Origin: Cardiobacteriaceae bacterium
GTDB lineage: Bacteria; Pseudomonadota; Gammaproteobacteria; Cardiobacteriales; Cardiobacteriaceae
DNA: 58,183 nucleotides
Assembly (NCBI GenBank): GCA_030529365.1
Contig: JAUMXB010000015.1
Span: 1 to 58,183, forward strand
Reading direction: 5' to 3'
The notes under the pieces were generated by a model, which saw only the letters and a program-made list of their open reading frames with translations, was not told where the DNA came from and ran no database searches. The translations under genes and the position numbers were made by a program. Shown here in pieces: positions 29,295 to 38,370 of the stretch (position 1 is its first letter; every line of letters starts with the position of its first letter).

Positions 29295-30455
<1,161 letters not shown>

Positions 30456-34897: not shown

Positions 34898-35263
34898 CTA
34901 CGTCTGCCCCGGCAAATCCGTACCGCGCTTTTCCACCCGCCATTGCGCACGGCTGCCGGGAAAGGCGCGGCACAGGCTTTCGCGCGCGGCTTCCAGCTTG
35001 AGTTCGCCGCAGAGGAAAATATCAAAGGCGGCAAAGCGGTGTTCCGGCCAGGTGTGGAGGCTGATGTGCGATTCGGCGAGGAGCAGCACGCCAGTCACGC
35101 CCGCGTTTTCTCCGAAATGATGGAAATGCGCGGCGAGAATGGTAGCGCCTGCCTGTGCAGCGGCGTGACGCAGCTGTGCTTCCAGATAGGCGGCATCGCC
35201 GAGCAACGCGGCATCGCAGTGGTAGAGATCAAGCAGGCCGTGGCTGCCGGGGCTGTGCGTCAT
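34898..35263 (-). CDS. speD: S-adenosylmethionine decarboxylase proenzyme (short prokaryotic type)
   Basis: A 121-aa pyruvoyl enzyme that decarboxylates AdoMet to the aminopropyl donor for spermidine. The self-cleavage site is ESHISLHTWPE: Ser65 becomes the pyruvoyl group, and His70 and Cys85 (IFLCGE) are the processing and catalytic residues. Its start shares a base with the upstream stop (TAATG), so translation is coupled to a 53-aa membrane peptide and the DUF4178/SPFH/DUF350 genes. No spermidine synthase is nearby. Confidence 0.94.
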   Translation of the reverse strand: MTHSPGSHGLLDLYHCDAALLGDAAYLEAQLRHAAAQAGATILAAHFHHFGENAGVTGVLLLAESHISLHTWPEHRFAAFDIFLCGELKLEAARESLCRAFPGSRAQWRVEKRGTDLPGQT

Positions 35264-35424
35264 TATTTGTGCGATCCCGATGAAAAGCCGCCGCCACTCG
35301 GCACAAAAACCGTGCCGCCGCTGTGCGTGCGCGAACCGGCCTGCGGATCCACGAGGCTGTAGTTAACCACCGTGCCAAAGCCAATCAGCAACATCGCCAC
35401 TATCAGATACGCGCCTTTACTCAT
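35263..35424 (-). CDS. 53-aa membrane peptide in the DUF4178-AdoMetDC operon
   Basis: One N-terminal transmembrane helix (about residues 5-22, AYLIVAMLLIGFGTVVNY) and a Ser/Gly-rich tail (THSGGTVFVPSGGGFSSGSHK). Its start overlaps the DUF4178 stop by 8 bp and its stop joins the speD start (TAATG). Tight coupling on both sides makes it a true gene despite its size. The start at 35424 is preferred over an extension to 35475, which would run further into DUF4178. Function unknown; probably a subunit of the operon's membrane complex. Confidence 0.82.
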   Translation of the reverse strand: MSKGAYLIVAMLLIGFGTVVNYSLVDPQAGSRTHSGGTVFVPSGGGFSSGSHK

Positions 35425-36931
35425 GTTTGCCCTTCCCGAGTTTGTGCAGGAGATAAATGACGATGCCGGAAACAAAGATGGAGAAAGCGAGATTGTCGCT
35501 GTTCATATTGAGCCATGCCGGCACGTTGAGGAACAGGAAAAAGGCAATGAGGAAAAGCGGGAGCGTACGTTTTTTATCGTCCTGCCGGGCCAGTGCTGGC
35601 GCGAAGGCCTTGCCGAACCATTTTGCCATCTGCGCTGTCGAGACGGGATGGCTTTCGCTCCAGGCAAGCTCGTCGGCGGACTGCTCCGCACCAAGTTTCT
35701 TGTTGCTGCCGAGGGAGAAATCGCGGTGCAGAAGAATATCGCCATGGCGGATACGCCAGTAAAACGCCCCTGCCGCATAGCTGACCTGGCTGCCGTATTC
35801 GTAAAGCAGCGAAGCGCCCTGCGGATTGCCTTTGCGGTTCAGGCGCGGCCATTCATTCAGGGTGCGCGAGATGCTCCATTCGCCATCCTCGGTTTCCACC
35901 AGCCAGAGGAATCCCCTTTCGGGATGATAGAGCAGATATTCCGTCCAGCTGCCTTCCGCACCGAGATGGCGCACGCCGTCGTGGCGCAGGGCGCGCGAGG
36001 CGAGCTCGATATCGACTTCATTCTTTTTCACCACGCCGATGACAACATAGCGCTTGCCATTGATCTCGCCCTGAGTGCCAAGCGGCAAGGTGAGCCGGCT
36101 TTCCATGGATTCGCGATACTTGCCCGCTTCGACGAGTTCGGCCTTGTCGCCACTGGTATCCAGCGTGCTGGCGCAGCTGCGGCAAATCAGCGTGCTGGTT
36201 GCGCCGCTCACCCATTCCACCTGCGAACCGCAGTTGGGGCAACTGGCGGCGCTGCGCGCGCCCTTGAGCTTGCCAGCCGTGGCCAGGATTTGCGCGTCAT
36301 CGCGGGTATTTTGCAGATGCAGACCATCCAGCGTAACGCCATGGCCGTAAAAGGCTTCCGGCAGATTTTCGGCATAATCCAGAGTCAGGAAATGGTTTTC
36401 GCAACGAAAGTCGGCAACGCGGTTTTCCATGCGCTCGGGCACGACGAAAGGCAGCTCGCCCTGCGCCGCCGTGCGCGACAGCATGATTTCGCGCACATCG
36501 GAAGCGCGGAAATCCTTGCCTTCGTAATCAAGCGTGGTATGCCCGGCGACGATTTCCGTGAACGATGGTGCCTCGGCAGGCGCTGCCACCGGGCGGAGAA
36601 AAACATACAAATCCCCTGCTTCCGAGAGCCAGCCGGTGCTGCCGTCAGCAAAAAGCGCATGCCATTCGTTCCAGACACCCGCATCGTATTGCGCTTGCAG
36701 GCGCCCGATCAGGGTAAACGGCATGTCGCCGAGCTTGCCCGTGGTGCCAACCTGCAAGGGGCTGAAATCCTCGAGCAGCGCGCTGTCGCGTCCGGTATCG
36801 CTCAGCGTGTTGTCATGCCGCAAAAGCAGGCTGTGGCAATAGTCGCACACCAGCGTGACGGCAGTGGCCGAGTGCACGGCCACCGGCGCGCCGCAGCTCG
36901 GGCAATCCGTTTTGAACAGGGGCGCGTTCAT
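35417..36931 (-). CDS. DUF4178 protein with two zinc ribbons and C-terminal membrane anchor
   Basis: A 504-aa protein. Cys10-x2-Cys13 and Cys29-x2-Cys32 (CPSCG, CDYC) form an N-terminal zinc ribbon; a second ribbon lies near 225-255 (CPNCG, CRSC). Each is followed by a DUF4178-like beta domain (for example FTLIGRLQAQYDAGVWNEWHALFADGSTGWLSE, and YVVIGVVKKNEVDIELASR...WTEYLLYHPERGFLWLVETEDGEW). Two hydrophobic helices near the end anchor it. The ATG at 36931 is 4 bases after the SPFH stop; an in-frame TTG at 36943 is possible. Function unknown; context suggests a membrane complex. Confidence 0.9.
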   Translation of the reverse strand: MNAPLFKTDCPSCGAPVAVHSATAVTLVCDYCHSLLLRHDNTLSDTGRDSALLEDFSPLQVGTTGKLGDMPFTLIGRLQAQYDAGVWNEWHALFADGSTGWLSEAGDLYVFLRPVAAPAEAPSFTEIVAGHTTLDYEGKDFRASDVREIMLSRTAAQGELPFVVPERMENRVADFRCENHFLTLDYAENLPEAFYGHGVTLDGLHLQNTRDDAQILATAGKLKGARSAASCPNCGSQVEWVSGATSTLICRSCASTLDTSGDKAELVEAGKYRESMESRLTLPLGTQGEINGKRYVVIGVVKKNEVDIELASRALRHDGVRHLGAEGSWTEYLLYHPERGFLWLVETEDGEWSISRTLNEWPRLNRKGNPQGASLLYEYGSQVSYAAGAFYWRIRHGDILLHRDFSLGSNKKLGAEQSADELAWSESHPVSTAQMAKWFGKAFAPALARQDDKKRTLPLFLIAFFLFLNVPAWLNMNSDNLAFSIFVSGIVIYLLHKLGKGKHE

Positions 36932-36935
36932 GACA

Positions 36936-37955
36936 TCAGCCAATCAGTTTTTTGAGAATTTCGGCCTTGGCCTGGTCGTAATCTTCCTGGCTGATCAATT
37001 GCTGATCGAGCATGGCTTTCAGCTTGGCAAGACGCGCCTGCGGATCTTCCCCACCTGCGGCCTGCGCCGGTGCTGCCTGTACCGGTGCAGATGGCTGCAT
37101 GCCGCCCATCGCGCCAGCCATCGCCTGGCCAATCGCCGCCCCCACGCCAACGCCTGCACCGATACCGGCAAGCCCGCCCTCGTTCTGCGCGGCAAGGGGA
37201 ATGGCGGCAGCCGTCTGATATTGCGTGTATTTGCCAAGGTCGCCGATGATGCCCATGGAAATGCGCTCGTCCAGCGTTTTTTGCAGCGCTTCCGGCAAAG
37301 TGACGCTTTCCACGGTGAAACTCTCCAACGCCAGCCCCAGCTTGGCAAAGGCAGGCGCAAGCAGCTCGGTCATTTTCTGCGAGAGCAGCATCTGGTTGGC
37401 CGCCATATCGAGGAAAGGAATGCCGGAGGTGCCAAACGCGGCGGCGAGCTGCGTCATGGCGAGGTTGCGCAACTGCCCTTCCAATTGGCTTGACCGGTAA
37501 ACCTCGGTCACGCCCGCCACTTCATGGAAAAACTGCGCCGGATCGCTCACGCGGAAGCTGTACATGCCAAAGGCGCGCAATTGCACGATGCCGAATTCGC
37601 TGTCGCGCACTGTTACTGGCTGTGCCGTGCCCCAGCGCTGTCCGAGCTGTTGGCGGGTATTGAAGTAATAAACGTCCGACTTGAAGGGCGAGGCAAAGAA
37701 TTTGTCCCAGTTTTGCAGGTTGGTGAGAATGGGCAGGGTTTGCGTGTTGAGGGTGTAAGTGCCGGCCGTGAAAAGATCCGCCGTCTCCCCTTCGTTGACG
37801 AACATCGCCATCTGCGCTTCGCGCACCACCAGCACGGCACCATTCTGGATTTCCTGGTCAGTGGCCGGGAAGCGCCACATCAGCACATCGTTTTCGGGAT
37901 TCGGCCATTCGATGACATCAATAAACTGCTTCTTGATAAAACTGCCGATCATCAT
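36936..37955 (-). CDS. SPFH-domain protein with C-terminal SHOCT motif (YdjI-like)
   Basis: A 339-aa protein. The SPFH/band-7-like region spans about 20-245 (VLVVREAQMAMFVNEGETADLFTAGTYTL...AFGMYSFRVSDPAQFF). A Gly/Ala-rich hydrophobic linker (about 255-285) follows, and the final residues form a SHOCT-like short helix pair (LAKLKAMLDQQLISQEDYDQAKAEIL), often an oligomerisation module. There is no N-terminal membrane hairpin. It lies 7 bp after the DUF350 gene and directly before DUF4178, a gene set seen together in other bacteria. Confidence 0.92.
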   Translation of the reverse strand: MMIGSFIKKQFIDVIEWPNPENDVLMWRFPATDQEIQNGAVLVVREAQMAMFVNEGETADLFTAGTYTLNTQTLPILTNLQNWDKFFASPFKSDVYYFNTRQQLGQRWGTAQPVTVRDSEFGIVQLRAFGMYSFRVSDPAQFFHEVAGVTEVYRSSQLEGQLRNLAMTQLAAAFGTSGIPFLDMAANQMLLSQKMTELLAPAFAKLGLALESFTVESVTLPEALQKTLDERISMGIIGDLGKYTQYQTAAAIPLAAQNEGGLAGIGAGVGVGAAIGQAMAGAMGGMQPSAPVQAAPAQAAGGEDPQARLAKLKAMLDQQLISQEDYDQAKAEILKKLIG

Positions 37956-37962
37956 GAACTCC

Positions 37963-38370
37963 TTAGCTCAGGCAGGCCGCATTGAGCAGCCCGATGGAAA
38001 CGGATACGGCGGCAAGCCATGCGCCCACTGCCACATTGTTGGCCACCAGCTCCTCATTCGCCTGCGGAATGAAGCGGGTAGCGCCGAAATAGACGAGAAT
38101 CTGGATCACGCCTGCGGCAATGCCCCACAGGAAAAAATCCAGCAGATTGACGCTGTGCGAAATGCTCGATGCGATGGCCAGCGAAAAACCGACCATTGCG
38201 CCGCCGAAAGACAGCGCACAGGCCAGATTGCCCTGTTTGGCGAGCTTGAGCTCGGCGGCTGGCGTGATGCGCAGGTAAACCACGCTGAACAGCGCCAGCA
38301 TCACTGTGCCCAGCACCATGTATTGCAGATACAGCCCGTATTGGCCAAGGGAAATAATCATAGCCTTCAT
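37963..38370 (-). CDS. DUF350 (YjfL-like) integral membrane protein
   Basis: A 135-aa protein with four predicted helices (about 10-33, 48-70, 77-98, 110-130) and the DUF350 pattern (LLDFFLWGIAAGVIQILVYF). Start at 38370 gives MKAMIISLGQYGLYLQY; an alternative at 38361 is possible. It is the first gene of a five-gene run (DUF350, SPFH, DUF4178, 53-aa peptide, speD). In other genomes DUF350 proteins accompany PspA-type envelope stress loci such as yjfIJKL, so a membrane-integrity role is a reasonable inference. Confidence 0.88.
   Translation of the reverse strand: MKAMIISLGQYGLYLQYMVLGTVMLALFSVVYLRITPAAELKLAKQGNLACALSFGGAMVGFSLAIASSISHSVNLLDFFLWGIAAGVIQILVYFGATRFIPQANEELVANNVAVGAWLAAVSVSIGLLNAACLS

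Follow-up and report, generated by a model that had tools for sequence, protein, structure and literature searches.

A dispersed membrane aminopropyltransferase system in a Cardiobacteriaceae bacterium and its candidate acceptor, a small peptide with a C-terminal lysine

The window analysed here is a 58,183-nucleotide stretch of DNA (contig JAUMXB010000015.1, assembly GCA_030529365.1) from a Cardiobacteriaceae bacterium, and its minus strand carries at positions 34898-38370 a compact operon of five genes, the last of which encodes the S-adenosylmethionine (AdoMet) decarboxylase SpeD. Families were assigned from Pfam and NCBIfam profile searches. The first gene (37963..38370) encodes a DUF350 membrane protein of 135 amino acids (PF03994, E 7e-33) which has adjacent orthologues in relatives. 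It is followed by the gene for a 339 amino acid SPFH protein (36936..37955) with a Band_7_1 match (PF13421, E 3e-73), a Gly/Ala-rich hydrophobic stretch and a C-terminal SHOCT domain (27.9 bits, cut-off 27), and by that for a DUF4178 protein of 504 amino acids (35417..36931; E 5e-22) with Zn ribbons, a beta-rich cytoplasmic part and two C-terminal transmembrane (TM) helices. A single-TM peptide of 53 amino acids, which has cross-phylum counterparts, comes next (35263..35424), and then SpeD itself, a class 1b enzyme of 121 amino acids (34898..35263; AdoMet_dc, E 4e-33). The gaps between successive genes are 7, 4, -8 and -1 bp, and the SpeD start codon overlaps the peptide stop codon (TAATG); genes, strand and packing agree exactly with a preliminary description of the locus. 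The peptide matches no Pfam or NCBIfam family. After its TM segment it continues into a G/S-rich tail (35266..35352) that ends ...SSGSHK-COOH, with the His and Lys codons at 35266-35271, and we propose it below as the carrier of a modified end. A scan of the operon found no sigma-70-like promoter or terminator above the chance level given by shuffled sequences.

SpeD scores 114.5 bits against TIGR03330, for which the cut-off is 75.65, and aligns over its full length with the Thermotoga maritima enzyme (structures 1tlu and 1vr7), such that S65, H70 and C85 correspond to S63, H68 and C83, the pyruvoyl Ser, the catalytic His and the Cys. It carries the motif ESHxxxHTWPE...C. Judged from these sequence features, it is a complete class 1b AdoMet decarboxylase, as the preliminary description had held, and is predicted to decarboxylate AdoMet. 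The catalytic Cys is kept by 48 of the 54 loci with SpeD in our wider collection, that is, by all but six Bacteroidota clusters (L128, L133, L135, L136, L138 and L143), in which Ser replaces it (...HTWPE...VFLSNF...).

For the DUF4178 protein we obtained an AlphaFold model (mean confidence score, pLDDT, 86) in which the two helices span residues 452-468 and 481-498; searched against the PDB, it found no fold match at E<=0.001 and so gives no functional hint from structure. The published band-7/SHOCT variant has two TM segments between these domains; the sequence of the SPFH/SHOCT protein here shows just a hydrophobic stretch rich in Gly and Ala. There are no matches to PspA (PF04012) anywhere in the assembly, which is 96.6% complete, and the SPFH/SHOCT protein sits where other versions of the system have PspA, so that the absence of PspA and its replacement by an SPFH protein, both suggested earlier, are borne out.

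The preliminary description also stated that the decarboxylase came with no spermidine synthase. This holds for the operon alone but not for the genome, in which a whole-genome search found exactly one Spermine_synth protein, of 504 amino acids, on another contig (C12) and unlinked to the operon. The existence of this protein rules out a SpeD that lacks a synthase. It is a fusion of seven N-terminal TM segments to a C-terminal aminopropyltransferase domain, hereafter TM-APT, and scores as the NCBI family ‘polyamine aminopropyltransferase’ (NF002956, 687.5 bits). Its fold and active-site motifs are those of polyamine aminopropyltransferases, the closest being the thermospermine and triamine/agmatine enzymes, and the motifs GGGDG, D-x-P-D-P and YHE are invariant. 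An AlphaFold model of the 81%-identical orthologue from Neisseria elongata shows seven long TM helices (pLDDT 90), and its C-terminal domain matches 1uir (E 3e-18). At its own locus (L068) the N. elongata gene stands alone, with partners not nearby. A third contig, C5, carries an intact flavin (FAD) amine oxidase with a twin-arginine (Tat) export signal.

In several related genomes these parts lie together: the TM-APT gene divergently adjoins the run DUF350-SPFH-DUF4178-peptide-SpeD and is itself followed by the gene for the Tat-signal flavin amine oxidase. Most betaproteobacterial loci (e.g. L070-L087) share this gene order with the relatives of the window, which suggests horizontal transfer. 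Of the 32 genomes surveyed in the order (G000-G031), one and the same set of nine carries DUF4178, TM-APT and the oxidase, which occurs also as fragments in G011; SpeD is found in eight of those nine and elsewhere in the order only as one broken, sub-threshold fragment. Several of these nine genomes have the genes scattered, so that the co-retention goes beyond mere linkage, although the nine share ancestry. One of the relatives, G002 (86% complete), has no detected SpeD; its locus L016 has DUF350 and then DUF4178 fused to a tail ending ...LSSHK, with no SPFH gene. We take the window operon to be one transcription unit of a system dispersed over three loci, namely the operon, the TM-APT gene and the oxidase gene.

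The presence of TM-APT bears on whether SpeD makes decarboxylated AdoMet at all. Where SpeD has no SpeE partner it can be a neofunctionalised arginine or ornithine decarboxylase, SpeDA or SpeDC (PMC10407285), in which case the operon would be unrelated to decarboxylated AdoMet. We regard this as highly improbable here: a transferase partner is present and co-retained, SpeD lies well over the AdoMet decarboxylase cut-off and carries the expected motif, and the genome has SpeA, whereas genomes with anomalous SpeD lack SpeA and SpeC (PMC10407285).

A more familiar possibility is that SpeD works with the distant synthase in an ordinary route to spermidine or spermine, either for housekeeping or in response to stress, as an intact SpeD and the family score of TM-APT would allow. 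However, the genome encodes a biosynthetic arginine decarboxylase (SpeA), a carboxynorspermidine synthase homologue (full-length, E 5e-133, although below the strict cut-off of its family) and, in the window but outside the system, the carboxynorspermidine decarboxylase NspC (29295..30455, minus strand; TIGR01047, 489.5 bits, cut-off 409). The speA and carboxynorspermidine synthase genes lie ∼2 kb apart on another contig (G000:C24; L064, L162), away from nspC. Putrescine and spermidine are covered by these three enzymes, and since they account for spermidine, SpeD and TM-APT form a separate branch. Moreover, most genomes of the order have neither SpeD nor TM-APT, the aminopropyltransferase domain is predicted to lie outside the cytoplasm (see below), and a 2025 paper (PMC12803844), which cites Li et al. 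2019 (Biochem J 476:2579, PMID 31467246), states that experiments have shown bacterial membrane-aminopropyltransferase fusion proteins to take no part in making spermidine or spermine. In view of these enzymes and that statement a housekeeping spermidine role for SpeD is unlikely, and we give ordinary spermidine or spermine synthesis as a whole little credence.

The operon is not an isolated oddity, since the same gene set recurs in dozens of named genomes. With the help of a TM-APT alignment we collected 80 named loci from Proteobacteria, Acidobacteria, Gemmatimonadota, Bacteroidota, Verrucomicrobiota and other groups. Among the 52 with enough flanking sequence the oxidase was found in 46, DUF4178 in 45, DUF350 in 44, SpeD in 41 and SPFH in 36, and all five genes were found together in 31; an RR motif is present in 57 of 64 oxidases. 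The gene-neighbourhood survey proposed in the preliminary description reveals strongly conserved linkage, and because of this conservation the arrangement is far beyond chance. That description had named a spermidine synthase elsewhere, together with a lack of conserved linkage, as what would speak against its idea; the genome does hold such a synthase, but it is the membrane-fused partner that usually stands beside the operon. One cluster of the same class (L053:5729-12513) comprises SPFH, TelA, an XpaC-like Halogen_Hydrol protein, TM-APT, DUF350 and DUF4178, together with a 67 amino acid one-TM protein ending RTHTGK.

The window operon is a dispersed member of a cluster type that has already been published. 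Ravi et al. (2024, PMC11237479) described a PspA/CesT operon with a 7TM-spermidine-synthase fusion, DUF350, DUF4178 and the lipoprotein Ctha_1186, and a variant in which band-7/SHOCT replaces the PspA dyad and an AdoMet decarboxylase and a polyamine oxidase are added. The co-occurrence of DUF350 and AdoMet decarboxylase genes with PspA loci in other bacteria, mentioned in the preliminary description, is confirmed by that study and by the PspA-type clusters in our own collection, and extends to DUF4178. TM-APT, DUF350 and DUF4178 are shared by the PspA/CesT systems and the present genome, which differs from them in having no PspA or CesT, a 53 amino acid one-TM peptide in place of the lipoprotein, and genes spread over three loci, TM-APT being unlinked. 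The SPFH/SHOCT protein, the AdoMet decarboxylase and the amine oxidase on contig C5 correspond to the band-7/SHOCT variant.

What is new here is a class of tails with a C-terminal lysine, found on peptides, on DUF4178 fusions and on lipoproteins. In every clade looked at, the slot beside DUF4178 is filled by a small single-TM protein or by a tail fused to DUF4178, and the separate peptides show almost no sequence conservation apart from a C-terminal HK or GK. An automatic scan found such an end in 70 of 75 DUF4178 loci (59 HK and 11 GK), as 56 separate peptides and 14 tails fused to the DUF4178 C-terminus. Of the five remaining loci, L075, L084 and L113 have a tail in a search requiring a C-terminal K, and L100 and L108 have a small candidate open reading frame (ORF) that clusters with GK-ending peptides. 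When selection was made blind to the C-terminus, using position, size and hydrophobicity alone, 43 of the 56 ORFs picked ended in K; of the others, ten were DUF350 proteins of half the usual size and a few were ORFs picked in error. As a control, the tail scan was applied at 820 random positions and returned 13 hits, all of them the already known tails and none elsewhere; as background, only 4 of 737 other ORFs of at least 120 amino acids end in HK or GK. In 37 of the 56 peptides the last residue is the sole lysine after the TM segment. The lipoprotein carriers of the PspA-type clusters all end in GK (7/7), as do three further lipoproteins beside TM-APT that were found by a search requiring a C-terminal K; the lipoproteins of the published systems thus end GK where the window peptide ends HK. 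On sequence grounds we propose a cross-phylum class defined by a TM or lipid anchor, a flexible G/S/Y/H/R tail, a C-terminal HK or GK, and a place beside TM-APT. The window peptide has the TM anchor, a flexible G/S-rich tail and a GSHK end, with TM-APT in the same genome. In Solitalea agri (L143:6107-9937) the unit DUF4178 - lysine-tail peptide - DUF350 occurs twice in tandem, and both peptides end SYYHK. In their main text, Ravi et al. 2024 (PMC11237479) do not use the word lysine.

Three independent predictions place the transferase domain, the tail and the oxidase on the same side of the membrane, outside the cytoplasm. For TM-APT, there are 3.0-3.6 K/R per sequence in loops 2-3, 4-5 and 6-7, as against 0-1.4 in loops 1-2, 3-4 and 5-6. 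Because the K/R-rich loops all fall on one side, the N-terminus is predicted to be cytoplasmic, with an extracytoplasmic transferase domain. Its Cys density, 0.28 per 100 amino acids versus 1.61 for soluble SpeE, fits the expectation for a periplasmic domain. Both in its 7-TM fusion and in this predicted location TM-APT departs from soluble, cytoplasmic SpeE. The tail is predicted to be outside because lipoproteins bear it, because one or three TM segments separate it from the cytoplasmic DUF4178 domain in the fusions, and because the separate tail peptides have a net charge of +1 before the TM segment and 0 after it. The oxidase carries its Tat signal. Within the TM domain of TM-APT the acidic residues E22, E117 and D143 are invariant and E74 nearly so, which is more than a mere anchor needs. 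Tat export of the oxidase, the outward orientation predicted for the transferase domain and the C-terminal-lysine tail were all absent from the preliminary description.

The gene content, the co-retention, the intact catalytic motifs and the lysine ends, all of them observed, and the predicted topology lead us to propose, tentatively and with not quite balanced confidence, that the system aminopropylates the C-terminal lysine of the 53 amino acid peptide by means of a donor made by SpeD and the transferase domain of TM-APT, which is predicted to face outward. SpeD would make decarboxylated AdoMet in the cytoplasm, and the 7-TM domain of TM-APT, with its invariant buried acidic residues, would move this cationic donor outward. 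The transferase domain would then aminopropylate, perhaps repeatedly, the epsilon-amine of the lysine, whose aminobutyl side chain may be seen as resembling putrescine, and the exported FAD oxidase would oxidise or trim the product. SPFH/SHOCT, DUF350 and DUF4178 may act as scaffold and regulators at the membrane, as PspA would in other versions.

Amide-ligase systems offer a comparison for the chemistry of the tail end. The E. coli yjfIJKLMC/ygiBC genes (PspA, DUF2491, DUF350, DUF1190, ATP-grasp) resemble the present system in their DUF350 neighbour and in the S/G/R-rich C-terminal tail of a lipoprotein-like partner, but the tail there has a GG end, and an ATP-grasp ligase stands in place of the aminopropyltransferase. 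All four DUF1190 partners of the YjfC/YgiC ATP-grasp enzymes that we inspected (E. coli YjfM and YgiB and two others) end GG; the enzymes bear the RefSeq name ‘peptide--spermidine ligase’, which we take as annotated. With Lys ends beside the transferase and GG ends beside the ligase, the end chemistry matches the enzyme chemistry, an amine for a transferase and a Gly carboxylate for an amide ligase. It is this pairing that would go unexplained if the lysine had no chemical role and only helped a scaffold subunit to dock, to stay stable or to be exported, in a phage-shock-protein (PSP)-like membrane-repair complex whose polyamine genes tune membrane charge. That the SPFH/SHOCT, DUF350 and PspA contexts are of membrane-scaffold types (PMC11237479) favours such a complex, which we nevertheless consider distinctly unlikely.

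The chief competitor to lysine aminopropylation is that the acceptor at the membrane is some small amine or the head group of a lipid (phosphatidylethanolamine, for instance), the lysine tail being a sensor or pseudo-substrate that reads or gates the transferase. TM-APT does retain the fold and active-site motifs of enzymes acting on polyamines, and by its resemblance to an amine substrate a lysine end could plug the transferase. Other SpeD/SpeE pairs are reported to be tied to envelope protection: the Pseudomonas aeruginosa pair SpeD2-SpeE2 (PA4773-PA4774), in which SpeE2 is described as a 349 amino acid thermospermine synthase, is a second SpeD/aminopropyltransferase pair outside housekeeping spermidine synthesis and is envelope-linked (PMC11107197). 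Left unexplained by this alternative are the presence of Lys at the extreme C-terminus of three unrelated carriers (peptide, DUF4178 and lipoprotein) and the GG ends in the amide-ligase systems, and we judge it rather unlikely, though a good deal less so than the scaffold-end explanation. The tail peptide is the likeliest acceptor, rather than a lipid. Of the working idea in the preliminary description, the local aminopropyl modification of lipid or protein is the best reading, because spermidine has its own route, with the lipid half of it less likely than the peptide.

Several points weigh against aminopropylation of the lysine. The tail modification is something we infer; with decarboxylated AdoMet arising in the cytoplasm, a transferase outside it needs a putative donor-export step; and the lysine at the C-terminus may rather serve docking, regulation or metal binding. 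The topology comes from hydropathy, charge and an AlphaFold model that is itself blind to inside versus outside, and the 80 named loci were picked by TM-APT similarity, not randomly. The isolated aminopropyltransferase domain was reportedly found inactive on putrescine by Li in 2019, which fits another acceptor but also fits lost activity. That same work is said to have treated this enzyme pair together with DUF350 and to have spoken of a “polyamine-independent role”, leaving the acceptor open and proposing no tail peptide.

In its widest form the proposal is of an extracytoplasmic modification in which decarboxylated AdoMet is exported and a membrane-anchored aminopropyltransferase extends the terminal lysine of dedicated tail proteins (53 amino acid peptides, DUF4178 tails or lipoproteins) into a chain resembling a polyamine; sister systems would join spermidine to a Gly-Gly end, the outcome being a hypusine-like, surface-tethered polycation for membrane stress. 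We hold this broader picture to be possible but more doubtful than aminopropylation of the lysine itself. The lysine, almost invariant at the C-terminus of a partner with little other conservation and matched by Gly-Gly ends in the ligase-type systems, is a testable candidate for the modified residue, and it bears on the polyamine-independent role of AdoMet decarboxylase and on the acceptor of the membrane aminopropyltransferase. If true, this would be, to our knowledge, the first report of decarboxylated AdoMet being used outside the cytoplasm, and it would represent a new kind of protein modification in several bacterial phyla.

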